From Malus domestica (taxonomy: Eukaryota > Streptophyta > Magnoliopsida > Rosales > Rosaceae), in assembly GCF_042453785.1 (NCBI RefSeq), contig NC_091675.1:3608501-3672500 (forward strand): 64,000 nucleotides of DNA, written 5' to 3'. Both the position numbers and the translations under genes were made by a program. Below are positions 14,175 through 31,951 of the stretch, piece by piece (within the stretch, counting starts at the first letter, position 1; every line of letters begins with the position of its first letter). The notes beneath the pieces are model-generated. The model did not search any database and was not told the DNA's origin. It saw only the letters and a program-made list of their open reading frames with translations.

Positions 14175-15212
14175 CTATTGATTCTTGGTAGACATTCTTT
14201 TGAGAAACTCATAGGTAGTAACCATGGTTGTGGAAGACATTGCCACTGAAGCCCACCTAGGCCCTAGCCCTCTGTAACAAGCAGCAAACCCTCCTTCCCT
14301 CACCAGATTTCTCACCGTCTGCATTATTGTCAGCGGTCTTCTTTGCCCGTTTTCTTCTGCATCCAGAACTTGCAAGCGCGTCTTGACAGTATCCAGCGGC
14401 ATGGTAATCAGAGCAGAAAACCCACTTGCCATGCCAGCACTGAACGCCTGCACTGCCAGCATTGCTTTGCAATCAGGACGCAAATTAGACCCATTGCCTG
14501 AGCCACTCTCATCTTTCTTACACATATAGCAACCGTAACCATCCCAAATGAGTCTGTGTGCAACAGAGTAAGAAGCCCACCAAACCGCATTTGAAGGCGC
14601 ATAAGTCAGTGACGCAATCCCAAATCCCCTGTACAATCCTCTCAATCCATCGGCATGTAAAATTTTCCTAAAAGCATCAAGGCCATTTCTGTACTTATAA
14701 GAATTCACACTGGGGAGGATGTGTCCGGTGCTGCTGGTGCAGCCCTGAACCATGAGTCTCTGGCTCACAACATCGATCGGGGTCCAAACTAATTGGGCCG
14801 CCATGGCTGAGCTCAACCCTGCAGCAGCATTCGCTATTGCCATAGCTGTAGTATCCGAAAATCCTAATCTAACAGTCACAGTCCCAACATTGCTCTTGGT
14901 AACTTCAAGCGCCGCCATGTAAAGCGCTCGAGCCGGAATTGTTCCCATCAGAGAGGTCCCAAAACCTCTGTAAAACCCTTTAGGACCTTCGTAGCGCATG
15001 ATAGCAAAAGACATCTTCAAGCAAGAAATCTGAGTGGGTGACACTTGCTGACGGGTTTTTAACACCACAATTGGATACAGAGCACCTGATACACCAGAAA
15101 ACAAAGCAGCACCCAGAAAGAAAAACTTGGACTTGTCCAGCATATGCCAATCTATATCAGCTGGGATGTGGATTTCCGAAGCCGAATCGTCCTCGGCCGC
15201 GCTCAAACTCAT
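14175..15212 (-). CDS. Mitochondrial carrier family protein (SLC25A44-like), single exon
   Basis: Six-helix solute carrier of the inner mitochondrial membrane or another organelle membrane; 345 residues from the ATG at 15212 (MSLSAAEDDSASEI). The longer open frame upstream begins with TTG, so I rejected it. Three repeats carry signature motifs PxxxxKxR or variants: PIVVLKTRQQV near residue 48, TPIDVVSQRLMV near 150, and MPLDTVKTRLQV near 272. Each is followed by a YRGFG or YRGLG box. Sequence and length fit the SLC25A44 group, whose animal member carries branched-chain amino acids; the substrate in plants is not shown by this sequence. There is no intron in the coding part. A 5' untranslated intron is possible upstream. 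Confidence 0.93.
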   Translation of the reverse strand: MSLSAAEDDSASEIHIPADIDWHMLDKSKFFFLGAALFSGVSGALYPIVVLKTRQQVSPTQISCLKMSFAIMRYEGPKGFYRGFGTSLMGTIPARALYMAALEVTKSNVGTVTVRLGFSDTTAMAIANAAAGLSSAMAAQLVWTPIDVVSQRLMVQGCTSSTGHILPSVNSYKYRNGLDAFRKILHADGLRGLYRGFGIASLTYAPSNAVWWASYSVAHRLIWDGYGCYMCKKDESGSGNGSNLRPDCKAMLAVQAFSAGMASGFSALITMPLDTVKTRLQVLDAEENGQRRPLTIMQTVRNLVREGGFAACYRGLGPRWASVAMSSTTMVTTYEFLKRMSTKNQ

Positions 15213-15259
15213 CTTCGCCACCTTTAAAATCCGATCAGGATACAAAATCCAAACCCCTC

Positions 15260-15900
15260 TTCCGACTAAAAATTTCCAAATCCTTCCCTACCCAACTAAA
15301 GATGTCGACAAATTTTCAAGCACGAGTTCAGCAAACACTCAAACCCGATAATAATCAGCATAAGAAAAGAGTAATTTAGATTTTGAAATGAAGTAAAAAT
15401 ACAATCTTGTAACTTTACAAGTGAACTTTTGCTAAGAAATGAACTGTTAGTAAGAAAATGAAAAATTCAAGACGTGATTTGAGAGCTATGGGATTAATTG
15501 GGATGTGGGTTTTGCTGGATTTTTAGGGTTCTTTTTCCTCTTGCGCAACCAGATTAGGGACCGCACGTGGATCACCATAAATGGGTCGAACATTTCTTCA
15601 TGTAAAAACCCCAATCGGTAGTGATGGCTCTTACCAGCAGAGGAAGAAGATCATGGGGGCTCATCTTCATCGTCTTCAGGACTTCATCCCTCCAGAATCG
15701 ACGGCGGAGATTGATGGAATCCCAGCTGCAAATATCTAGAGTGAGGAGTAACACAGAAAGCGAAGTGGATTGAGCAAAAGGATTGAGGGCTGAGAGAGAG
15801 GGGCTCGAAGGTGAGAGAGAGGACAAGATTTCTGGAGTGTAGCGAGGGTTTTTCGGATCGAGAAAGCGGACACGTGTCGATTATCATTTCGAGGACTTTC
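15260..15900 (-). promoter_or_regulatory. Likely 5' untranslated exon and intron of the carrier gene
   Basis: On the minus strand, a CT-rich, leader-like stretch (about 15900-15640) ends in a good donor (CTGCTG then GTAAGA, near 15637). An acceptor-like TTTTTAG lies near 15268, just before the carrier leader. This fits a 5' untranslated intron of roughly 370 bp. It is an inference from splice-like signals only. Confidence 0.35.
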
Positions 15901-17600
15901 CAAGATATTTACCGGTTTTGGGCTTGTGTCAAGGCTTAGGTTGGGATCGGTTTGACATTGATCCGTATTCAATGATGGGTTCATATGTGGGATTATGATA
16001 GGCATCAATGCCACAGTCAGTTGCACATCAGTGCCGACACGTAGGTGGAAATTTTGGGTTCAGCATCTAGACCGCGAGTCCATATGGCTCCAAATACAAT
16101 ATTTTATACTTATCCTAACTTCTAACGTCAAGGCCCATCACTACCTTATGTAATGAACCCACCCCCTTTCACACCACATTCATGGCCCATTACATCCGGG
16201 TTCTGGATGGAAGGATCTCTCCACACGTTCGTGTATCAATTTGCAGGAGAAAGACTTGCATGGCACGTGTACACTATCGTTTGGCATCCTATGCTAATAA
16301 TGTAAAGACATATGTTCCTTGCATTATTGGTACGAGACGACACATGACGATGTACTCATATTATATAAGTTGTGCTGAAGAACAACTTGCATGAAATAAG
16401 TTCAGTGTCACTTGGTGTCGTGATTTATTAGTACAATATCATGCAATAAAACGATGTACTCATATTATATAAGTTGTGCTGAAGAACAGCTTGCATGAAA
16501 TAAGTTCAGTGTCACTTGGTGTCGTGATTTATTAGTACAATATCATGCAATAAAACATATTATGACAATTAATTTGTTTTATGTAAGTCATTTTTCTTAC
16601 TATAGCTATGGATCGTTGTATCATTCATAGCAAGTATTTAACATATCGTGTACTAACAGGTGCTTTGACGAAATGAGATTTTCATTCCGAAATCTCCAGG
16701 TGATAACATGAACTAATTCTGAAAAGATTTGTTCTTAATTACATCCAGTTGTCATAGTTTAAGTATTAATTAACAACCTGTAAAGACTTGTGTTTCATTG
16801 ATGTCAGAGACTCCCCAGAGCTGTGCCATCCACTGCAACGAATCCTTCACGACCGAATCACTCTCCGCCGTTGAAGAATTTAGCGCAAACTATGTCTTCT
16901 AGCTCTAGGAAAGTCGATAATCTTGACAAATCCACACTTTGATTTCATTACATATGAAATATGGACCAAATTAAACAGGCGAGTTGAATTCGCAACGTTC
17001 GTTGCCTCTTCACTTGGCAGCAGCAAAAGGGGATGTTGAATAGTTAAACAATGGTTGACAGTCAGTACTGACATGTGCCTCGCAATTGATCTTGACTGAA
17101 GAACCCCCCTCTTCACCTCTCAGCCACGAGAGGCCGGCAGGGTTAATGTGTTGAGGGAGCATCAGCAGCTTGGGCCACTGTTTGCGAGGGAGAGAGTACG
17201 TACACTGTACGTATTGCATTTGTATGCATGTTTGTAAAACATAAATGGTCAGCCGGAGGCTCTCAATCAGCTTATAAGACTCAACTTTCTAACTGATCAC
17301 TTTATCCGAGAATTTTGTTACATTTTTATTGTAACGCATGCTTCCGATATAAAATAAATTGGCAATAAGTGGACCAGAGGCTCAAGATCTTTTAACACGA
17401 GTTTCATCTCTAATGTAGGATGTTCTCAACAAAGACTCCTCACATGGGACCGTTCGTATTCAGTAATTTTTCATCGATCTGCAGACGGTAAAGTTTTTGC
17501 TTATGACTGGTAAAGTGGTAGCTAATGCTGCAAACGTAAACGCTTTAAAATATTGGACTTTGGACACTCTCACACAAACCCACTGAGATTTGATTACAGA
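15901..17600. other. Intergenic region with one recent tandem duplication
   Basis: No gene recognised. A 34-codon frame at 16801-16902 (MSETPQSCAIHCNESF) has no recognisable homology. A 104-bp tandem duplication lies at 16347-16554. The remainder appears to be unique spacer, ending at the left border of the lectin-kinase duplication near 17600. Confidence 0.5.
16347..16554. repeat. 104-bp tandem duplication
   Basis: Two adjacent copies (16347-16450 and 16451-16554) start ACGATGTACTCATATTATAT and differ by one base (AACAACTT against AACAGCTT). The near-identity means a recent event. Confidence 0.95.
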
Positions 17601-17848
17601 AAGCGAAACTGTTTTTTTTTATTCTTTTTTATTTTTTTCAGAAAAAGAAAGAGAAAAAGGAAATGGCAGCAAAGTCACTTTTAATTTGTACTGGCCAATA
17701 TAAATTAATTTAAAAAATACCATTATTTGAAAAAGCAAAACCACAACCATCAATAAATAACAAGAACATAAAAAACGGTAGGGACCTGGGTAGCTTAAGT
17801 GGTGAGAGAGTAGAAAAATATATTACAGTGAAATACGTTATACAAATA

Positions 17849-19352
17849 CTACGGTATGTATGAGGAAGAAGTAGTAGTGTTGTAAGATCCATGGCATGAC
17901 GCTTCAGTTTGTCCTCCTCCAGTAACATTATTATCAAAAAACAACATTGAAAGTGATCTTGGAAGAGGAAAATAGGTGGCCACCGGCATCTTTGACGGGA
18001 GAATGGGCAACGGAACCTCGAAGGTGAACATTTGCATCACTTGTTGCATTGAAGGCCTCATACTGTAATCTGGATGAGGCCACCATAACCCTACAATCAT
18101 CAAGCACTTGACTTGTTTCTTATCGAAAACTCCACCAAGTTTTGGATCAGCTGCTTCAAAAACTTTATCTTCTCCAAAGAGATCCCAAACCCACTCCACC
18201 ATGTTAACTCGAGTATGATCAATGGGTTTCCGCCCGCACGCAATCTCCAACGCAACAATTCCGAAGCTATAGTCATCCGACTCCTTGCTAGCCTTTCAGG
18301 AGATAATGTATTCAGGAGCCATGTATCCCATCGTTCCAGCTAAAGCCGTTGTCTGTGGTTCCTTTCCATGGTCTGCAAGTCGTGCTAACCCAAAATCGCT
18401 AAGTTTTGCGTTGAAATTCGAATCCAACATAACATTGCTGGATTTAATGTCCCTATGCAGCATTGCTCCCATTCTTGATGAAGATATTGCAACCCGGCTG
18501 CCACGCCTTGAGCAATTTTGTATCTTACCTCCCAAGTCAAGAAGCTTGTTTCCTTGAACAAATGAGAATCTAAGCTTCCATTGGACATGAACTTGTATAC
18601 GAGAAGAGATTTTTTAGTGTGACCAGTACACGGGTGGTACATCACGTGTCACTATACAAATGGTGGGATATATGTGCCAAAAAGTTAATAACTTAAAAAA
18701 TAAAATTTCCCATCACTCCTATTAAAACACGTGGTGTACCATTTGTATTCCCGTCATAACTAAAAATTTCTCGTACATGAGTAGCAGTTTTTTTTGTGGC
18801 ACCAACCGATGAGTTGAACCAAATTCCAATGCCTAAGTCGACCAATGATCTTCACTTCTGCCGTGTACTCCTTCAATCATTGTTTTGACGCTCTCAATAT
18901 CCTCTTAACCGCAACAAATGAGTTCAAGTCTTGTATGAAGCCTCTGTAACACCACCGAACCCTCCATCTCCTAGCTTTTCTTCCTTGGAAAATCACTCGT
19001 TGCGTGAGCCAATTCACTATATGGAAACTTCCTTGGGCCAGAGGTTATGATCCCCTTTTCAAAATCATCGTCGATGATCAAGTCATGAACGGTAGAATCT
19101 TCATAATCACTACTAATTTCTTCTCTTTCTTTCTTCTTCAACAAGATCTTGGACCAAACCAACTGTAAACCACAAACCAAGATAATTAGAGACCCACCAA
19201 TACCCATCCCAACCGCCAGGCGGCCATTTCCTGATGATTTGGTGGTGCTCTTGTGATGTACATCATCAAGCAGTGAAGTTGAATCAAAAGTTAAAACTCT
19301 ATGAGTTGATTTTGTGCATAGCATTTAAATCAGCCGTTCCGCAAGTGAACCC
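17849..19352 (-). pseudogene. L-type lectin receptor kinase, copy 1: kinase half (broken)
   Basis: The transmembrane segment (GIGGSLIILVCGLQLVWSKI) is at about 19160-19220, with juxtamembrane sequence to 18971. Kinase pieces follow: [12 protein letters not shown]- and DFGLARL-type blocks inside 18296-18535, and the C-lobe at 17849-18250. The reading frame is interrupted by a small frame change near the start of the kinase domain, by a 169-bp MITE at 18604-18772, and by further lesions near 18290 and 18460. The lectin half lies at 29083-29798 on the far side of a 9.7-kb LTR element. Compared with copy 2 at 33979-35187 it is clearly a pseudogene. Confidence 0.9.
18604..18772. mobile_element. 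169-bp MITE, copy A, inside the kinase pseudogene
   Basis: Imperfect terminal inverted repeats (AAGAGATTTTTTAGTGTGAC against GAGAAATTTTTAGTTATGAC) are flanked by a 9-bp target duplication, GTATACGAG at 18595-18603 and GTACATGAG at 18773-18781. The intact sister gene shows the empty site (GTACACGAG). A 9-bp duplication suggests a Mutator-type origin. Copies B, C and D are at 46434-48217, 54880-55049 and 55248-55415. Confidence 0.9.
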
Positions 19353-21011
19353 TGTTCGCGGCAGGAATTCCCGTCGGGGGTGTTTCCTGGCCGACGAGCA
19401 CACAGCTCCCCTGGAGGTTCGGCGTCAGTTGAGGGCTGCTGTCGGGCTTCTGCTTTCCTGTCGGGCTTTGTCGGGCAAGTCTCGTCGGGCAAGACTAGTC
19501 GGGCAAAACTCTTCGGGCAAGGTTGAAAGAGAAGGACAACGTTAACTTTGAGAGGTGCCTTTGTGGGGCCTTAGGTGTAGGCCTTGAGGCTCACAATCAA
19601 GGTTAACATTTTGGTGCTCAGGCGTGCCACTGCCATCTTCATTATGGCAGATGTCGAATAGATGTCAAGTTTTAGTTGTGAATATGCATATGCCCGAGAA
19701 ACCGTGTTAGATATAACAGGTGCCTTTGTGGGGCCTTAGGTATAGGCCTTGAGGCTTTCTGTCAAACTAAACCAGTGCTTGAGCATATTATATTTGGTCT
19801 TTATGGTTGTCGGGGTCTTATAACTATTATATTTCTGATTATCCGAGTCTGAGAGGTAGAGCGAACCCAAATAGGTGCCTTTGTGGGGCCTTAGGTGTAG
19901 GCCTTGAGGCTTCCCATTAGAGTCCGTTCTTATACTCAAACCATCTAGACTGCAGAATAGAATAAATCCAAATAAGTGCCTTTGTGGGGCCTTAAGTATA
20001 GGCCTTGAGGCTTCCTATTAGAATCCATTCTATACTTAAGCGTTCTATAATAATCATGATATAATAGAAATAAAACCAAGAGGTAGGTCGATTACTTGCG
20101 CCCCAAGTAACTTCGGACTTCTCGTTTATCAAGGATTGTCGTGGATGGGTTAAGTCCACATAAAGTTCTTTTTTATGCCTTGAGGCCAAGGACTTTTAAA
20201 CTAATCAGATTTACATGCCTGAGGGCTTAGGACTTGGATCTGATTTAAACACTGAAGATATATTCAAATCGGATCCAAGTACTGAGAACGCTTTGTCATT
20301 GTGATTTTACTAGAAACAACTTGCATATAACTGGAAATATACAACATATTGCTAGACTTTAAAGAAAGAGAAGACAAAGACAGAGCAAAGCAGGTCGGGC
20401 AAGATTAAACCTTATCAATTAAGGCTGATCGTCTTGCAGGTCCCTATCTTTGTAGTTCTGTCAAAGGTCTGAAAGCTTAGAGGGGGAGAGGGGAAATGAG
20501 AATACAAAGGGTGAATCGATACTACAACTTGTTCGAACAAGGTAGCAGAGCTATTACAGGGGTTGGGAGAAAAGATTATCCCGCGGGGGATGAAGGCTTG
20601 GGCTGACTACAGCTTCGTTTTGAAAGACAAATATGGCTTTTTGAGCAGAGTTTGTGCTTTTGTTTATTTGATTGAGTGTCTTTATTCCTGTCTTCTCTTC
20701 CTCCTTTTATAGACGACTCGGTTTGGCTCTTGTAGCGACAGCTTTGCCCGAATGCGGTCTGAGGGTGATGACTCATCAGCTTTATTACATGTAATGCCAC
20801 CATAAAGTACTTTATGGGCTGTGCAGTCTGATCAGTCTACACCACTTGGTCCTTGGGTAGGTAGGCAAGTGGCCCTTATGAATTGTATCAAGTCAGAAAA
20901 GGCCATTTCCTGCTTTCCCAAGTTTCGGTCGGGCCTTGATCTTCTATTCCTTCAGGCCTCCTTTTGGGCCGACTCCATCCTTGGGCCAAAAATCAATTTT
21001 TAATCCAAACA
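19353..21011 (-). repeat. 3' LTR of the 9.7-kb element
   Basis: TG...CA bounded and equal in length to its partner at 27419-29077. It contains four spaced copies of a block of about 38 bp, TGCCTTTGTGGGGCCTTAGG plus GTGTAGGCCTTGAGGCT, at about 19552, 19711, 19876 and 19976. Each includes a GGCCT...AGGCC dyad. Confidence 0.95.
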
Positions 21012-21121
21012 GTGCCCCCTTCATTTGATATTAAACCTGGAATTCCAGGCACCAATATTAATTGAAAATAAACTCCTTATTACTCACACGAAACCCTCGC
21101 GATTGATCTTCTCAATTTTCT

Positions 21122-24100
21122 ATGTTCCGTAGAAAGAAATCCCTCTGTGATAAAAAAAAAACTTTCCTGCTTCTCCCCACCATTCTTCTCTGTTGCCCGA
21201 CAAGGTTGCATCCTTATCATCTCCCTTGTTTTCTTTCTCGACCTTCGTCAAATGGCTTCAGGATCCAGCCAAACCCCACCATCTTACGAGTCCGGCGACG
21301 GAATCGCCACCCTACGCCGTCTACTCAACGGGCTGCATCGTCCGCGGGCAGGTTTACATTCTGAACTATTCTTTGAGATGCATGGAGTACAATCATTGGG
21401 CCCCGCCTGGATTTCTCGGGTCCCCTCAGTGGTGGAAAGCAACATGCCTAGGGAGAACTGGTTTACCCCAAATCCCTATTCGGCTAGTTCGGGCATCTCC
21501 TCTTCGAAATGGTCATCATATCGTCGAGGCTTTCCCTTGATGAATGATCCAACCTGGGCCTAGTGGGTTGACGAATTAGAGCCTTCCTTCAAGCAAAAAT
21601 GGATGAGTAACGATATTTATGAACTGATCATGCTTTCGAAGACTTCCATTATCTCTAAGCCCGAATTAGTTACTTATGCCCTCCTCTTTTGGAATACGGG
21701 CATAAATACTTTTGATTTCCGTATGGGCCCCATGTCTCCCACCATTCTTGACATGGCCTAGGTCTTCGGTTTAAGGCCATCAGGCAGGATAGTGGACGTC
21801 ACTCAAGACTGGGTTCCGTCCCCTACCACCGGGAGCTCGAGTTCATCTATCTCCTTCCTTCCTCTGAGTTATAACTCCGCCACTTTCAAGAGTTATGGGA
21901 CCTCCTTCAAAGGATTCATTCCTTTTGTAAAGGCAAATTTTGGGGCAGGCTCCCTTCGGGCTGACAAAGATCAAGAGCATATGTATTTTCTTTTATACTG
22001 GCTCAACAAGCACATCTTCCCCAACAAATCTAAAGGAGTGAGGGTAGAATGGATCCCTTTGGTAGAGGTTCTTCACAATTTTGATGATGTAGCCACAGGT
22101 CCATTCCTTCTTTCTCATCTCTATCACCTTCTTTTTGAAATGACTCGAGACGAGCCATTCGAGACCAACTTGAATGGACCTATCTGGATGATACAAATAT
22201 GGCTGTAATGGTATTTTCCAGAATTTCGGGCTGCTAATCTGGAGTTCCCAGAGGGTGTGGCTCCTGCCCGAATCCTGGCTGAAGCTCCCCCTGTAGACCA
22301 TTCTACCTTCGCCTGCTTTTACTTTTTCAGAGTCTGCAGGACTCGATCAGACTTGGAATGGGGTGCGTCAGTCTTGAGGAGATATCTTTGGTTCTCTGAC
22401 CAAGCCTTCCAAGATGCCCCTGGTGAGGACGCTACCCCCTTTTGCAGGGAAAAATTTATCAGCTGCATTCAACCGAGAGACTTGGCCTGGGGGGTTCGGG
22501 GCAATAGATATGATCGAGGCTTGGAAGTGTACCATCCTAACTTCTGCAGCAGGCAGTTAGGATTTAGGCAAGCCATACCTGTCCCATTCTTTGACTCTGT
22601 CCATTGTGGCACCTCATTCCGGTTACAAACTCCATCTGAAGTGACATTCCAAGCCGCCCGACGCAGCCTGGATGTAATGAGTCAAGCAGCCCGAAATTCC
22701 GTTGTTCTTAATTTTGAATGTACCTCGCTGTTTTCCTCTTGGTGGGAGGACAAATGGACTAAAAAGTATGGAGGAGATTTGAAGGTGAATCACGATCGCA
22801 TCTTCAGCCAGCTTTCTCTTAAATCATATCCTGGCTCGGGCGAGCTTGCAAATTGGAAGGAGATGATTCAGGAGAAAAACCGGTCACTTCTGATAGGTAC
22901 TTCTCTTTCAACTCGATTTGGCTTCCCTTCTGAAGTCCTTCTATCCTTACTTTTGCTGAATTCTGCAGCTTCAGTGGATGTTGAATCGGAAGTCATTGAA
23001 TCCGAAGATGACTCTGCTGATGCTGCAATTCTTCATGGTGCTGCCGCAGAGGCTGAGAGACGAGAAGCCAGGGAGGGGACGGACATCTCAGAATCCATTG
23101 GGGATTCAAGGGCTGAAGGAACACCCAAGGCAATCACTAAAGCCCTCAAGCGAAAGAAAGTGGTCATGGCTAAAGATTCCGACCCTGATTCTGCACCTCT
23201 TCTGACAACCACAAGACCAGTTCTTTCTTGAAAGAGTAAGCGGGCAAGGATTACTATTCCTCCTAAATCAGGAGTCCCATCCGCTCCAGTTCCTGAGGCA
23301 GGCAGAAAGAAGCAACAATCTTCAAGTGAGTCTTTTTTTTTCTATATCAAACGGCTACCTTTCTCTTTTATCTAATTGTCTCTTTTATCGATTAACAGGA
23401 CCTCAAGCATCTAAAAGGCCAATCCTTGCTTCTAAGGAGGAACCACTACGGGCTGCTATGGTTAAAAAGGCCGAAGAATTGCGAAACACCGCCCTTCGAG
23501 AACTCGAGGTATAGCTGATATTATTGTATACCTTCTTACTTTCATACAACCCTGAATTTGATTACTCTGATCAGGCTGCGAGAAATGAAATTCTCTCTTC
23601 GCCCCGAGGCTTCTCCATAACCTGCCCGAAAGAAAAATCTTTCCCCCTCCCAGACTAATCCTGCTGAGGTACTTTCTCTCATTCCTTTCTACTTCTTGGC
23701 TAACTCTCCAATTTATTGATCTAATGGCTAAGGACTTTTCTTTCCTTTATTTTGTTTTCCTAGGCTGGTGCATCTGCCTCTTTGCCTAGTCATGGACCCC
23801 CTCTGAGATCTATGACTTCTTCTACTGCTTTGGATGCGACCCCTTCCTCTCAATTTGATCCGTCCACAGGAGTTATATTGCACTTCGTGGATGAGGATGA
23901 TCCCTTGGTAAATTATTATTTCCTCATTGAAATTTTGCACATTGCTACCCAATTAACTCCTTTTTATGTTTCCTGCAGCCATCTTCAGTATATGAGCCAC
24001 CTCCCTCACTAGTGGTCTCGGATAAGGAACCCATAGTTCCTGAGATCCCTGTAGCTTCAGATGCAGCAATTTCGCAGGTGTTTGCTCGCCCGATAATTGA

Positions 24101-25247
24101 TGAACCTTCTTCTCCTCCCCAAGATCAGACTCAAGTACTGGAATATTTTCTTTTTGCTTCTTCCTCTGGTGACCTTTTTGCTGACAATTATTGCTTTCTT
24201 TGGATATATCCAGGATGCAGGCACAGGTTCAGGCGCAGCTTTTTCCCCTCCTGCTGGCGGTGAAGAATCTTCACCCCAACCAAGAATTAGTACATTCTCT
24301 GGTGAAACTCCGGGGCTGAGTCAGGTAAATTTCTTCTCTCCAGAACCTCTTTTTGCTTCAACTTGTATTCAGATTACCCTGACCTAGTCTTTTGGTTTTT
24401 GTAGCAAGCTTCAAAAGAAACTTCCCCTCCTCCATTGGCTCGTAAATCAAAGCGCCCTCATCCTCATTCATCTTCTGGAGGTATTGATACTTCCCCCTCT
24501 GGAGTTGAGCAGACTAAACAGGCAGAGGTTACCCCCTCAATAGGCATTGTCTCATCGGAGGGAACTGTCACGCCGGACCCTCATCCTTTCCCATCCTCTG
24601 ATCCTGCCAAGTTGCCCAAACTCTTCGAAGCACTCGGGCGACTTGAGACGCGGTTGAAATCTTCAACACAGCCCCCAGCAACCTCCATGTCCTCGGAGCA
24701 ACAGCGAATCTTTCAGGAATGGGCAAAGAAAGAATTCACCGCGGCATTTAGTCTCAAGGCTCTCTGTGATCTTGAGAAAGTCATAACTAAATTTTTCAAA
24801 ACCGGTCGTTTGTCCAAGCCTCAGCACGATTCTTTTCTTTCTTTCTTCGAGAACCTGAGGGCTCTGAAGGAACAATACCAGAGAGCGGATAGACAGGCTA
24901 ACCGGGCAAAATGCTTTATGGAAAAGGAATCAAACTCTTCTACCCAAGTCAACCGACTGATGGAAGAAAGCATGCAGACTAAAGAAAGGGTTAAAGTGAT
25001 TTCTTCTGAAATCCAAAAGCTAGAAGAGCAACTGGTTGCCCTTAAGGAAGAACAAGCCACTCTTCTGGACACCCTTGAACACCAAATCGAAGGGGTAGAG
25101 AAAGCAACTTCGGAGTTAGAGCAAGCCAAGTCCCAACTTGTAAACCATCATACTGTCTTGGCCGAACCCAATAGGATTTTTACCATCATGCGAACATATC
25201 ATTCCAGAATAATCACTCTATGTGAAGATGTAAAGTTTTTAGAATAG
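21122..25247 (+). pseudogene. Antisense plant-mobile-domain-like gene with introns, carried by the LTR element
   Basis: On the strand opposite to gag, frames at about 21150-23230 resemble the plant mobile domain (aminotransferase-like) family. The signature stretch is FWNTGINTFDFRMGPMSPTI followed by LDMA and a FGLRPSG block, and later WWEDKWTKKYGG. From 23.3 to 24.4 kb at least six short exon-like segments are separated by clear GT-AG introns; three have lengths divisible by three. A final long segment (24405-25247) is a predicted coiled coil of about 270 residues (EEQLVALKEEQATLLDTLEH). About four breaks interrupt it. Plant mobile domains are known both in host genes (MAIN/MAIL1) and in transposons. 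Function here is unknown; a captured host gene or an element accessory gene are both possible. Confidence 0.75.
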
Positions 25248-25425
25248 AATGATTTGTAACTCTTTTTTGTATTAGAATGAACATGTAATTTGCTTCTTGC
25301 TCTACCATATCTGAATTGACTTTGGGCAACTCTTTGCCCCCTCTGTCTACGCACTTTTCTCCTCCATCTTCCCTGTTGACAACCTTATAATCTGCCCCTG
25401 GTCCTCCGGTCTCCTCGTGGCACCT

Positions 25426-27300
25426 TTATTCAGCCAATACCCCTGGCTCCTTAAAAATGAGGTTGATCATATTGATAGGAGCCTCCGGAAAAGGGTTAGT
25501 GTCCACCATCATACTGGCTTGGGGTGAGTCAAGCAATAGTTTCCCCTTCACTATAAGATCTTGTACCCAATCTCTAAACTGGACACAATTAACTATATAA
25601 TGGTTGAAGGTATAATGCAACTTGCAATACTTTTTCCCCCTGAGTTCTTTGGGCTTGGGCATCTTTTTGGCACTGTCGGGTAAAATTACTCTCGCCCGCA
25701 CCAACTCTTCATAGATCTCCGGTGCCTTGGTTAAATCAAACGAATAGCTCTGATACTTTGGGGGTTTCATGGGGACGAAACCACCATCATTCATCACGAT
25801 CTTCTGATCCTTGACAGGTTGAACTAATCCTTTGATCGTCAATGGTTTGAAGGGTGTGGTCATCTCAGCAGCACATACATCTATATTTTCTTCCTCATGA
25901 CCATCCTCGTGTTCGGGCCTGGTTTCTCCCACCTCCACATGGTGAATAGTAGCCTTGCTTTTGTAGAAATGAGGGACTTTGGAAGTGTGCTTCACTTGAT
26001 GTTCCTCTTGCAACAACCTATCGTACTTCGTGGCAGCAATCACGAGTTCTTGCAGCTCATTGAACTGTGCATCATAAAACTTTTTCCTCAAAGGTAATTT
26101 TAAAGCCCTTTGAGCAATGGATATGAGCTGTGCTTGATTGACGGGGAATTGGCATTTCATCTTGGTCCTCCTGAACCTCATCATGAAGTCTTCCGTGGAT
26201 TCATGATCGTATTGTTTTACCTCCACTAGATCATTGATGGTCAATTCTGGCTCTATTCTGTAGAACTGTTCATGGAAAGCCATCTCCATTTGCCCCCAGT
26301 TGGCAATAGAGTTGGGGGGTAATAGAGAATACCATTGAGACGCCAATCCTGCCAATGAATTTCCAAACAACCTCAATTTGTAGTTTGGATTGTCCTCATA
26401 CACCATACAATGATTGGAGAATTTGAAAATATGGTCTCTGGAAGACACACTGCTGTCTTCACCTGTGAAGGTAGGGAATGCGGGCATCTTGAAGTTGAGA
26501 GGGAATGGATTTAGCTCGTTGATATATTCAGGATACGGCTTCTGGTAAGTAATCCTGAATACTGGGTGAGCCCGCGGCTGGGCGTTTTGAGTCACCGTTC
26601 TTCTTAACTCAGCCAATTCCTCCCTTAGTTGCTGAGTGGCTAAATTATCATTATGACCGAGGATAGCTGATCCAATCTTCGGGCTCCGGTCATTGCCCGC
26701 ATTCGCTTCTCTCCTTGGTTCGGGCTTCCTCCAGTTAGATCATCCACCTTTATTGACCATCGGGGGTGGCCTATAGGGTGGAGGTTTATCTGAAGTAGTA
26801 GTGGTAGCAGTAGTGGTAGTCTCATTTCCACTAGTTTCTCCCATCATACCTGGCATTCCGTACCTCGTCATTTCTTGTTCGTTCTGCCCCTTATTATTAA
26901 ATGATAATAATGGGAAACTGGGAAACTCTTTCTCCGGAATCGGCTCCATTACTGGTTGACTTCCTTCAGGAATTACCTTTTTCTTTCCCCTGTCTCCTGC
27001 TTCTTCTAGTAGTGGGAATAAGGGAATGATTGGCTCATTTCTCGTGATAACCTGGCTCATTCCACTTCCTTGAGCACCCTTTGGAGTAGAGAACTCCAAA
27101 TCAAGCCTTCCTTGTAGATTCCCTGTGAGCATACAGAGTCTGCTTACTTCTCCCTTTGTTTCCAGGGAGATCCTTTCCATGCTCTTTAACACTTGGATCA
27201 TCGTAGCTTATAGCTCTTCATTGCTTCCTTTTCCTTGTGATCTTTCAGATGCAGTCGGGCTATCTGAAACCACCTGTCCAGATGGGGATGAAGGATTTTC
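25426..27300 (-). pseudogene. Ty3-type gag of the 9.7-kb element
   Basis: The main frame (25426-26616) contains a retrotransposon gag domain (FPTFTGEDSSVSSRDHIFKFSN, LFGNSLAGLASQWYSLLPPNSI, FMMRFRRTKMKCQ). Further gag-like or leader frames lie upstream at 26740-27201. It appears broken about two times. No CCHC knuckle or pol follows; the downstream space is taken up by the antisense gene. Confidence 0.8.
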
Positions 27301-27418
27301 TGATTGTTCTGCCATTTGGAGAAGACCTTCATTTGGATTCTTTTTACCAAGTTTATGGTTCTTCTTTTTGGACATGCAAGATCTGGAAGTCTAGATCCCA
27401 CCGGGCGTGCCAAAACTA

Positions 27419-29077
27419 TGTTCGCGGCAGAAATTCCCGTCGGGGGTGTTTCCTGGCCGACGAGCACACAGCTCCCCTGGAGGTTCGGCGTCGGTTGAGG
27501 GCTGCTGTCGGGCTTCTGCTTTCCTGTCGGGCTTTGTCGGGCAAGTCTCGTCGGGCAAGACTCGTCGAGCAAAACTCTTCGGGCAAGGCTGAAAGAGAAG
27601 GACATCGTTAACTTTGAGAGGTGCCTTTGTGGGGCCTTAGGTGTAGGCCTTGAAGCTCACAATCAAGGTTAACATTTTGGTGCTCAGGCGTGCCACTGTC
27701 ATCTTCATTATGGCAGATGTCGAATAGATGTCAAGTTTTAGTTGTGAATATGCATATGCCCGAGAAACCGTGTTAGATATAACAGGTGCCTTTGGGGGGC
27801 CTTAGGTATAGGCCTTGAGGCTTCCTGTCAAACTAAACCAGTGCTTGAGCATATTATATTTGGTCTTTATGGTTGTCGGGGTCTTATAACTATTATATTT
27901 CTGATTATCCGAGTCTGAGAGGTAGAGCGAACCCAAATAGGTGCCTTTGTGGGGCCTTAGGTGTAGGCCTTGAGGCTTCCCATTAGAGTTTGTTCTTATA
28001 CTCAAACCATCTAGACCGCAGAATAGAATAAATCCAAATAAGTGCCTTTGTGGGGCCTTAGGTATAGGCCTTGAGGCTTCATATCAGAATCCATTATATA
28101 CTTAAGCGTTCTATAATAATCATGATATAATAGAAATAAAACCAAGAGGTAGGTCGATTACTTGCGCCCCAAGTAACTTCGGACTTCTCGTTTATCAAGG
28201 ATTGTCGTGGATGGGTTAAGTCCACATAAAGTTCTTTTTTATGCCTTGAGGCCAAGGACTTTTAAACTAATCAGATTTACATGCCTGAGGGCTTAGGACT
28301 TGGATCTGATTTAAACACTGAAGATATATTCAAATCGAATCCAAGTACTGAGAACACTTTGTCATTGTGATTTTACTAGAAACAACTTGCATATAACTGG
28401 AAATATACAACATATTGCTAGACTTTAAAGAAAGAGAAGACAAAGACAGAGCAAAGCAGGTCGGGCAAGATTAAACCTTATCAATTAAGGATGATCGTCT
28501 TGCAGGTCCCTATCTTTGTAGTTCTGTCAAAGGTCTGAAAGCTTAGAGGGGGAGAAGGGAAAGGAGAATACAAAGGGTGAATCGATACTACAACTTGTTC
28601 GAACAAGGTAGCAGAGCTATTACAGGGGTTGGGAGAAAAGATTATCCCGTGAGGGATGAAGGCTTGGGCTGACTACAGCTTCGTTTTGAAAGGCAAATAT
28701 GGCTTTTTGAGCAGAGTTTGTGTTTTTTTTTGTTTGATTGAGTGTCTTTATTCCTGTCTTCTCTTCCTCCTTTTATAGACGACTCGGTTTGGCTCCTGTA
28801 GCGACAGCTTTGCCCGAATGCGGTCTGAGGGTGATGACTCATCAGCTTTATTACATGTAATGCCACCATAAAGTACTTTATGGGCTGTGCAGTCTGATCA
28901 GTCTACACCACTTAGTCCTTGGGTAGGTAGGCAAGTGGCCCTTATGAATTGTATCAAGTCAGAAAAGGCCCTTTCCTGCTTTCCCAAGTTTCGGCCGGGC
29001 CTTGATCTTCTATTCCTCCAGGCCTCCTTTTGGGCCGACTCCATCCTTGGGCCAAAAATCAAATTTTAATCCAAACA
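27419..29077 (-). repeat. 5' LTR of the 9.7-kb element
   Basis: 1659 bp and about 98 percent identical by eye to 19353-21011. It carries the same four spaced GGGGCCTTAGG blocks and ends at the AACCC target duplication. Confidence 0.95.
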
Positions 29078-29082
29078 AACCC

Positions 29083-29798
29083 TACAACGACCAAATCGGG
29101 CAAGTAGCGAGTCAGATCAACCGTGTAATCGAGATAGCTCATTACTTGGACACCATTTGCATTATAAGTAGTGAAGGCAACGCTAAGATTTTTTGATTTG
29201 GAATCGTAACTGATGAAAGCACTGTTGACTCTTCCATTAACAATACTTCCATTCCAAGGCTTTGTAACCCTAGACACGACCGAATTGACGTAGATACCAA
29301 CATGATCGCCGACGGGGTCTTTGGATGTCCGACCAGTTGTTATGGAATATATCAAACTCCACCGATACATAGGGATACAGACTCGTGTTCATGGCGGCCG
29401 TTGAGTATGGAGCCGTTTAGTGCTATGAAGAATGCGAAACCGTTGCTGTAGTTAGTTTCGTTTTGTGAGTCGATGACAAATGTGAAGTTTGTGGTGAAAT
29501 CAGCGAGCCTTCCTGTGGCGTTTTGGCGGAGGAGAAAGGGTTGGCTATAGGTGGCTCGACCAGCGCTGCGAGTCTTGTTGTCGTCCACAGCGCCTTTGGT
29601 GAGCCGGAGGAACTCGTCTGTGTAAGCATCTCCCTCTACATATATATTGGCCCTGGGGATACCGGCTTGAAAACTCTAGAAATTGACTGTCAACGGAGTT
29701 GCACTAAGGTTTAAGAGAAACAAGAGAAGGAGGAGGAGGAGGAATATTTGAAGTTGTTTTTGCTTTGGTGAGAAATACAATTTACTGACAAATTCCAT
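29083..29798 (-). pseudogene. L-type lectin receptor kinase, copy 1: lectin half (broken)
   Basis: Minus-strand frames match the legume lectin domain of copy 2: RSAGRATYSQPFLLRQNATG, then ADFTTNFTFVIDSQNETNY, and GSIVNGRVNSAFISYDSKSK. The start codon corresponding to copy 2 is at 29798. The frame changes near 29360-29400, where some sequence present in copy 2 is missing, and the signal peptide region has small indels. The rest of the gene is beyond the 9.7-kb element. Confidence 0.9.
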
Positions 29799-30629: not shown

Positions 30630-31951
30630 ATACATTCGTGGTTTTCAATATTTAGTACATGAAGTTTTTTTTGTCCCAGAATCATACCTAAAGTGTAAAT
30701 TTTGGGACAATCTCATACATCCGTTAGTCAAACTGTTAAGTCTCCCGTTAACTGTGACATGGTGCCCATGTGGACAATGACTAGGCGCCATGTGTCATCC
30801 ACGTGGAAATTAAAAAAAAAATTAAACTATTAAAATAATTAATTAAATAAAAGTAAAAATAAATAAAAATTCCCCATATCCCCTTTGTCATCCCCACACA
30901 ATCCCCTTCCCTTCTCCCTCTGCACCTCTGCACATCCGCTCTCACCCTCACTCCCCAGATCCCCAGATCCCTCTGCACCTCTACACATCCATCCTTCTCC
31001 AGATCCCCTTTGTCTTCCCCACCCCGATCCCTCACCCCGAAAGACTTGCTGTGACACGTACCTTTGCACATTCGTTCTCACCCTCACTCTCATCTCTCTC
31101 TCTCTGTTCTCACTCCCCAGATCCCCAGATCCTCAGATCCTTATGCACCTCTGTACATCCATCATTCTCCAGATCCCCTTTGTCTTCCCCACCTTGAGCG
31201 ACTTGCTGTGACACGTGCGACGATAGAGGCCTTTCTGTGGAAGAGAGGGTCGCCGTGCTTCCATCCGAAGACGAGGGACTTGTCGGGTTCCTAGAGCTCA
31301 ACGGAGTGAAGCGTGTGGGAGTTGAGGATGGTGCGGACGACGTTGAGTTCTTGGATGATGAGGGGGTCAAGAAGGTGGGGGGGTGTCGGAGCTATGATTT
31401 TTGAGGCGGGGTGTTGGGATAGGGGGTTTGGATTGGATGCGGTTTTTTGAGGAGTACCAGGCGGAGTTTGTTATGCAGTCGAGGAGGTTTGAGACATACG
31501 GGCGGGGCGTAAGGGAGGTGGGACCAAGTGAAGAGAAGGACTAGGCCTATGCAGAGGGAAAGGGAGAAAAAACACAGGAATCTCCGATCTTTCGTGGATT
31601 CTGTGTTTCAGAGTTTGAATTTGAGGAAGGGGGAATGATGGATGTGCAGAGGTGTAGAGGGAGAAAGGAGGGGAGTCGGGGTGGGGAAGACAAAGGAGAT
31701 TTGGGGATTTTTTTTTTTACTTTTATTTAATAGTTTATTTTTTTTTTAATTTCCACGTGGATGACATGTGACGCCCAGTCATTGTCTACATGGGCGCCAC
31801 GTCACAGTTAACGGGAGACTTAACAGTTTGACTAACAGATGTATGAGACTGTCCTAAAATTTACACTTTAAATATGACTTTGGAACGAAAAAAACTTCAT
31901 GTACTAAATGTTGAAAACCACGAAACATGAGGGTAGTAAACAGTCTTTTGC
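30630..31951. mobile_element. Long-TIR (Mutator-like) non-autonomous element, copy 1
   Basis: Inverted arms of about 200 bp: left 30630-30820, right 31745-31951. The right arm ends GGGTAGTAAACAGTCTTTTGC; the outermost 20-30 bp of the left arm are missing. The arms match those of the element at 46511-48116. The interior (30870-31700) differs: CT-rich repeats of CAGATCC/CCTCTGCACATCCATC on both sides and a GC-rich piece (31200-31560) that could be captured gene sequence. No transposase is seen. Confidence 0.85.

Follow-up and report, generated by a model that had tools for sequence, protein, structure and literature searches.

The stretch of DNA studied here, which we call the window, is 64,000 nucleotides long and comes from Malus domestica (contig NC_091675.1, positions 3,608,501 to 3,672,500, or C15:3608501-3672500 in the genome that we searched, which comprises 651 Mb in 19 contigs). 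Positions below are counted from its first letter. The window contains a 9,725-bp copy of a pol-less long terminal repeat (LTR) retrotransposon at 19353-29077, with its sense on the minus strand. This copy has gag on its sense strand and, on the opposite strand, an intron-bearing gene with a plant mobile domain (PMD). The antisense gene is an old accessory gene retained by a family of such elements, not accidental cargo.

The element is flanked at both ends by the target site duplication (TSD) AACCC (19348-19352 and 29078-29082). Its two LTRs, both 1,659 bp long and on the minus strand, lie at 19353-21011 (the 3' LTR in the sense of the element) and 27419-29077 (the 5' LTR) and are 97.95% identical, with 34 mismatches and no gaps. 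The mismatches are 24 transitions and 10 transversions (K 0.021), which would place the insertion at 0.8-2.6 million years ago under two assumed rates. The primer binding site (PBS), TTTTGGCACGCCCGGTGGGATC, is at 27394-27415 (minus), and the polypurine tract (PPT), with the core GGGGGCA, adjoins the 3' LTR at 21012-21028 (minus). A pattern derived from the PBS, with one mismatch allowed, gave no match to a primer tRNA. The gag open frame at 25426-26739 (minus) matches Retrotrans_gag (PF03732, E=8.9e-13), and the frame continues upstream at 26740-27207, separated by a stop in the window copy. Opposite the antisense gene there are five minus-strand frames of at least 90 amino acids, the length from which frames were scanned, and none has a Pfam match at E<=0.1; leftover pol opposite the antisense gene was rejected on this basis. 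Paired LTRs, TSD, PBS and PPT mark this as an LTR retrotransposon, and the presence of gag together with the absence of pol marks it as non-autonomous and gag-bearing. Elements with LTRs and gag that lack pol are known as TR-GAG elements; our element shares with them the LTRs, PBS, PPT and gag and the missing pol, and differs in that its family adds a conserved antisense gene.

The antisense gene lies on the plus strand at 21252-25247 and consists of eight exons. Exon 1 (21252-22896) begins with the start codon at 21252 and encodes the PMD: PF10536 matches 21762-22208 with 53.7 bits against a cut-off of 34.9 (E=2.5e-14). A further match below cut-off (E=0.0045) places the last part of this profile in 22209-23231. 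Exon 8 (24405-25247) is an open frame with a coiled-coil-like end and the stop codon, and its Pfam matches are weak and all below cut-off, several of them being to coiled-coil families.

To define the introns, we compared the window copy with 29 of the 39 other listed copies (L010-L038), aligned over window positions 20262-24830. Intron 1 (22897-22968, 72 bp, phase 1) has both GT and AG in 30/30 copies. GT and AG are kept in 29/30 and 28/30 copies, respectively, for intron 2 (23326-23398), 30/30 and 29/30 for intron 3 (23509-23574), 30/30 and 29/30 for intron 4 (23669-23763), 29/30 and 28/30 for intron 5 (23908-23978), 28/30 and 28/30 for intron 6 (24135-24213), and 30/30 and 27/30 for intron 7 (24325-24404), all on the plus strand. 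Intron lengths differ between copies, and at least one of the 30 lacks intron 2 altogether. The splice sites were picked for conservation, so this count is not an independent test; the background is that 29% of 703 non-coding dinucleotides are kept in at least 27/30 copies. The reading frames appear to give more independent support for the exon model, as in seven of the eight exons (1-3 and 5-8) the frame predicted by splice phase is the one that is open in the most copies. This frame is open in 21/30 copies in exon 2 (22969-23325), 27/30 in exon 3 (23399-23508), 25/30 in exon 5 (23764-23907), 26/30 in exon 6 (23979-24134), 23/30 in exon 7 (24214-24324), and 13/30 in the first 296 bp of exon 8. 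In exon 4 (23575-23668), which is 94 bp here and 93 or 94 bp across the 30 copies, two frames tie, with 27/30 open. Four distant copies (L049-L052) retain six of the seven introns, intron 4 being missing there together with its flanks, and one acceptor is changed in one of these copies.

The sequence-only reading of this region had proposed a pol-less LTR element with gag opposite an antisense gene, and the LTRs, the TSD, the gag match and the lack of a pol match in Pfam bear this out. It had counted at least six GT-AG introns, and seven are now supported, each with GT in at least 28 and AG in at least 27 of the 30 copies. The end of the gene that it gave, 25247, agrees with ours, and the start moves inward from 21122 to the start codon at 21252. 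A PMD profile search had been set beforehand as a check that could overturn the reading, and it returned PF10536 above its cut-off; of the protein that had been described as a PMD with a coiled-coil end, the PMD is thus confirmed, and the end remains at weak matches below cut-off.

The window copy itself is broken: in-frame stops interrupt exon 1 three times and exon 2 once, and exon 4 is off by one base in length (94 bp, against 93 bp in 10 of 11 comparable copies). It is a pseudogene. Over the 30 copies, exon 1 has 34 stops that differ from a non-stop majority codon, and 26 of them are single C-to-T or G-to-A changes, a pattern as expected from the decay of methylated DNA. A stop at contiguous codon 554, found in many copies, was considered as a sign of decay and rejected, since the position falls within intron 1. 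At least one of 16 copies examined exon by exon has no stop before the last codon, but has one altered acceptor.

Divergence was measured as Kimura K for every pairing among the 30 copies (435 pairs, which are not independent of one another). In exon 1, K is 0.048 at 0-fold sites and 0.312 at 4-fold sites, and in the PMD part the two values are 0.043 and 0.322. Among non-coding parts, K is 0.268 in the introns, 0.227 in the leader, and 0.145 in the aligned LTR stretch (20262-21011). The 4-fold sites of exon 1 are therefore roughly intron-like, with amino-acid changes held to about 15% of that rate, and exon 1 is under strong purifying selection. The stretch 21252-23331, which spans exon 1, intron 1, exon 2 and a few bases of intron 2, has 4.3 gap runs per kb; the corresponding figures are 77 for the LTR stretch, 108 for the leader and 63 for 23332-24404. 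The difference between site classes is also present inside single groups, with K at 0-fold and 4-fold sites being 0.041 vs 0.193 within group A (the window copy and L010-L023; 105 pairs) and 0.023 vs 0.122 within group B (L025-L038; 91 pairs). In a single pair of copies, L040 and L049, 68 of 236 4-fold sites in exon 1 differ, against 54 of 1,064 0-fold sites (Fisher p=3e-23). Raw Nei-Gojobori dN/dS gives 0.14 for the gene frame, 1.38 and 1.35 for the other plus frames, and 0.59-0.73 for LTR frames; because transitions outnumber transversions, we replaced this ratio by the comparison of 4-fold sites, 0-fold sites and introns.

For a deeper comparison, group A was set against the distant copies L049-L052, with L053-L056 as their gag pieces. 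The ratio of K at 0-fold sites to K at 4-fold sites (K0/K4) comes to 0.121 in exon 1, falls to 0.098 in its PMD part and rises to 0.297 in exon 8 (8 pairs each); gag has 0.095 (16 pairs). Between these deeper groups, the PMD part is kept about as strictly as gag. Among five close copies, K0/K4 of gag is 0.270.

The layout of the window element recurs across the genome. For the PMD exon block, the search scored at least 40 copies, including the window (84-100% identity; 350 candidates); it also gave at least 40 scored copies of the last, coiled-coil exon, and at least 96 gag matches (of 8,149 candidates) spread over all 17 large contigs. The layout was tabulated from 40 PMD-exon copies, 40 last exons and the best 65 of the 96 gag matches, and all counts are lower bounds. 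Gag lies on the opposite strand within 6 kb in 31/40 PMD copies and on the same strand in 0/40. Opposite-strand gag was also found for 33/40 last exons, and in 33/33 of these listed pairs the distance is 177-282 bp, which therefore leaves no room for pol. An antisense block is listed for 50/65 gag matches. In most copies, then, the gene is antisense to gag and adjoins the 3' LTR, which is the layout described as an antisense accessory open reading frame (aORF-3R).

On the same contig as the window, we found a pol-bearing relative with 937-bp LTRs that are 99.4% alike and lie ~12.5 kb apart, start to start. Its gag is identical to the window gag at 117 of 326 positions (36%). Its pol has a protease-like stretch below cut-off, followed by RT, RT_RNaseH, RVT_3 and integrase domains. 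Behind pol, it carries an antisense PMD gene of its own (PF10536, E=5.9e-40), whose PMD matches that of the window family at E=1e-30 with 30% identity, and which has a 150-amino-acid, helical-looking end with weak Pfam matches only. The PPT and the first LTR bases agree between the window element and this relative, and the PBS is nearly identical. Read by eye rather than on an alignment, the relative also has a TATAAATA box somewhat more than 100 bp upstream of the start codon and a phase-1 GT-AG intron right behind the PMD, at the site and in the phase of window intron 1. It appears, then, that the antisense gene predates the split of the pol-less family from its pol-bearing kin, with at least one intron probably present by then, and that the pol-less family lost pol while keeping gag and the antisense gene under selection.

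We also placed the PMD in a tree of 14 rows, all from the genome of the window, in which long branches and open forks were flagged. The PMDs of the two element families join at 98/95, together with L057 at 100/99, and stand apart from L001-L004, L058 and L059. This grouping with the PMD of a pol-bearing element is what bears on the published PMD-A class, in a tree that holds no reference PMD-A, PMD-B or PMD-C sequences. A search of PDB sequences gave no match for the element PMD, and three matches at chance level (E 0.1-0.2) for L001. In the genome as a whole, 118 PMD rows were listed, and 99 of them have scores of 126-139 bits. L039 is among the 99 and is the antisense PMD of a pol-bearing element whose LTRs are 99.4% identical; L060 and L061 cluster with L039 in the tree, and this group appears to be a young family of high copy number. 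Not all of the 99 rows belong to it, as L058 at least falls elsewhere in the tree. Six PMD matches within ~50 kb at C3:27566370-27616344 look like a tandem cluster of PMD genes.

The copy number and the relative also bear on the proposal in the sequence-only reading that the gene is stable mobile cargo. At least 40 copies of the PMD exon are not what a one-off capture would leave, and the gene does move with the element and keep its introns. It does not seem peculiar to the non-autonomous element, as the pol-bearing relative has a homologue.

The best explanation, to which we give a probability of roughly 0.6, is that the window holds a decayed copy of a pol-less Tat/Ogre-type Ty3/gypsy family that keeps gag and an antisense eight-exon gene for a PMD/coiled-coil-like protein, which serves the element. 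The Tat/Ogre placement is suggested by the relative, which combines two RNase H types with a homologous gag, the shared PBS and PPT, and the antisense gene. In the mechanism that we propose, the antisense gene would be transcribed from an antisense promoter in or beside the 3' LTR, and its introns would be spliced only from that transcript, so that the genomic RNA would transmit them unspliced. Reverse transcriptase and integrase would be supplied in trans by relatives. The antisense protein would act in the nucleus to the benefit of its own element, the most likely routes being that it counters host silencing or that it shapes the element's chromatin. Since pol was dispensable, and yet the PMD part is conserved with roughly the strictness of gag, full supply of this protein in trans is probably not possible. 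From this, we tentatively suggest that it could be a cis-preferring accessory factor, with element-specific anti-silencing as its most likely action, and harder to replace in trans than reverse transcriptase or integrase.

Some further features lie in the LTR and leader. On the strand of the antisense gene, TATAGA at 20708, within the LTR, is retained in 30/30 aligned copies and is a putative promoter element of the gene, although suggestive only. Four copies of a 74-base motif with the core GTGCCTTTGTGGGGCCTTAGGTGTAGGCCTTGAGGCT lie at 19537-20031, with spacings of 165, 155 and 101, and again in the same part of the other LTR. There are perfect palindromes in the LTR (CCATAAAGTACTTTATGG, 20800-20817) and in the leader (CCTGGAATTCCAGG, 21036-21049), and palindromes of 14 bases number three over 990 bp, where simple shuffles give 0.06. 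The LTR palindrome is exact at 17 of 18 bases in 17/30 copies, and the leader palindrome at 13 of 14 bases in 27/30. Both are absent from L039, L048 and L049-L052, the last of which extend ~320 bp into the LTR side; we considered the palindromes as targets of the antisense protein and leave them as a side note.

Several observations weigh against an element-serving protein retained by a pol-less family. Exon 1 is free of stops in just 11/30 copies, and the window copy is among the broken ones. The LTR stretch has diverged less than the introns and the 4-fold sites (0.145, against 0.268 and 0.312). Constraint is weaker in exons 2-8, taken without exon 4 and with part of exon 8 (0.148 at 0-fold vs 0.309 at 4-fold sites), and exon 8 has 91 gap runs per kb over its first 296 bp, at the level of the LTR and the introns; the coiled-coil end does not appear well kept in all groups. 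Raw dN/dS in the minus frames is 0.22, 1.66 and 1.18. The frame with 0.22 is in register with the third positions of the gene, and we take the low ratio as a mirror of the gene's own signal. The list of gag matches holds no partner for 9/40 PMD copies and 7/40 last exons, and no antisense block is listed for 15/65 gag matches; the missing gag partners partly reflect the limits of the lists, because a copy on C7 has a partial gag in L041. Finally, the pol-bearing relative is distant from the window family, and no direct autonomous partner with the same LTR was found among the best 40 of 1,750 LTR candidates.

A special case of our explanation is that the protein specifically counters host PMD-dependent silencing of the MAIN/MAIL1/PP7L-like kind, as a decoy or competitor. 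Ikeda et al. 2017 (PMC5418596) show a role of MAIL1 and MAIN in silencing and speculate that MULE elements use a captured PMD against it. On the other side, the element PMD shares only ~30% identity even with its counterpart in the second element family, and the tree separates it from L001-L003, the rows with the highest PMD scores. We consider this version possible but doubtful.

Somewhat less probable still, and in our view unlikely, is that the selection is the shadow of unseen pol-bearing masters with the same LTRs, of which the pol-less copies would be repeated dead-end offshoots. A pol-bearing relative of the same layout exists, and our copy lists are lower bounds, so masters of this kind are conceivable. 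But none of the 33 listed pairs of gag and last exon has room for pol, and the best 40 LTR matches form six pairs with LTRs 4.95-9.94 kb apart, start to start (the other matches have no listed mate), compared with ~12.5 kb in the pol-bearing relative. The constraint inside group A and inside group B also speaks against dead-end offshoots.

We give little weight to a third alternative, in which the effective product is an antisense RNA that pairs with the genomic RNA and regulates it via small RNAs. This has been discussed for antisense open reading frames (Vicient and Casacuberta 2020, PMC7264820), and PMD genes of tea yield phased small RNAs (PMC10673657). The constraint at the codon level, with introns and 4-fold sites far more diverged, points to a protein instead, although both products may coexist. 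Recent capture of a host PMD gene by one element, for which one could cite the further PMD matches in the genome, some tightly clustered and taken for host genes, is ruled out, as far as these data go, by the at least 40 scored copies, the homologous antisense gene of the pol-bearing family, and the tree, in which both element families join apart from L001-L004 (with the flagged long branches).

PMDs and antisense genes both have precedents in plant elements. One survey met PMD more often than any other extra domain in Gypsy elements (PMC9289625), and it is reported in 57% of Ogre elements (Neumann et al. 2019, PMC6317226). Ogre elements with a PMD reading frame belong, as ours appears to, to the Tat group of Ty3/gypsy and carry an extra frame with PF10536, whereas the window family lacks pol and its gene has seven introns. 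The link to Ogre is made here through the primer site and gag that the window element has in common with an element with two RNase H domains, a pairing that PMC9289625 describes as characteristic of the Tat family. Ikeda et al. 2017 (PMC5418596) describe PMD-A clades exclusive to Gypsy elements, PMD-A1 and PMD-A2, which are separate from genic PMD. Like these, the window PMD is borne by a Gypsy-type element; our comparison of it covers rows of its own genome. Host PMD proteins act in silencing (PMC5418596; PMC7156037), and an anti-silencing role for PMD in transposons has already been put forward (PMC5418596).

Antisense reading frames of plant elements are reviewed in PMC7264820. Retand elements also have an antisense protein gene near the 3' LTR, and their lineage includes non-autonomous members without coding domains (PMC11963269). 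Their main antisense domain is Transposase_28, however, and the available text of that paper mentions neither an intron nor a PMD. Grande of maize carries the antisense accessory gene gene23 near its 3' LTR, for which an own promoter and a nuclear product are reported (PMC7264820). Grande differs in having pol, and the available parts of the review mention no PMD in it; for the window gene, an own promoter and a nuclear product are predictions. Another apple repeat of similar size is HODOR, a high-copy element of 9,716 bp (KX869746) that gathers at putative centromeres (PMC13334179). It has the same LTR type and is within 9 bp of our 9,725-bp element, a comparison by length only; it is clustered at centromeres, whereas the at least 96 gag matches of the window family occur on all 17 large contigs, which speaks somewhat against identity of the two. 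Our search, of mostly non-subscription literature, turned up no title that points to a pol-less element carrying an antisense PMD gene of several exons. Work by Steinbauerova et al. from 2011, which is cited for PMD in Gypsy elements, may describe antisense PMD reading frames. PMD and antisense frames in such elements are thus known, and, as far as our searches go, the combination of pol loss with a spliced antisense PMD gene whose core is under gag-like constraint is new.

The element interrupts a gene for a lectin receptor kinase that has the same orientation (17849-19324 and 29059-29675, minus), with the kinase match (18296-18613) on one side and the legume lectin domain on the other. Parts of 17649-18949 are repeated at ~33.8-34.9 kb, as would be seen with a tandem paralogue. 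Elsewhere in the window, there is a gene for a mitochondrial carrier protein in a single open frame at 14175-15287 (minus; PF00153, E=2.3e-53), a 104-base tandem unit in two copies that are 99% alike (16347-16554), and an inverted repeat at 30635-31924 with 217-base arms that are 87% complementary and 856 bases between them.

A pol-less family with a selected gag and a selected antisense PMD gene would amount to a natural deletion experiment on which functions an element must encode for itself. It bears on the role of antisense genes in plant Gypsy elements and on whether silencing proteins of the MAIN/MAIL1 type descend from PMDs borne by elements. The comparison of 0-fold sites with 4-fold sites and introns is a simple sequence test that may be applied to other pol-less families.

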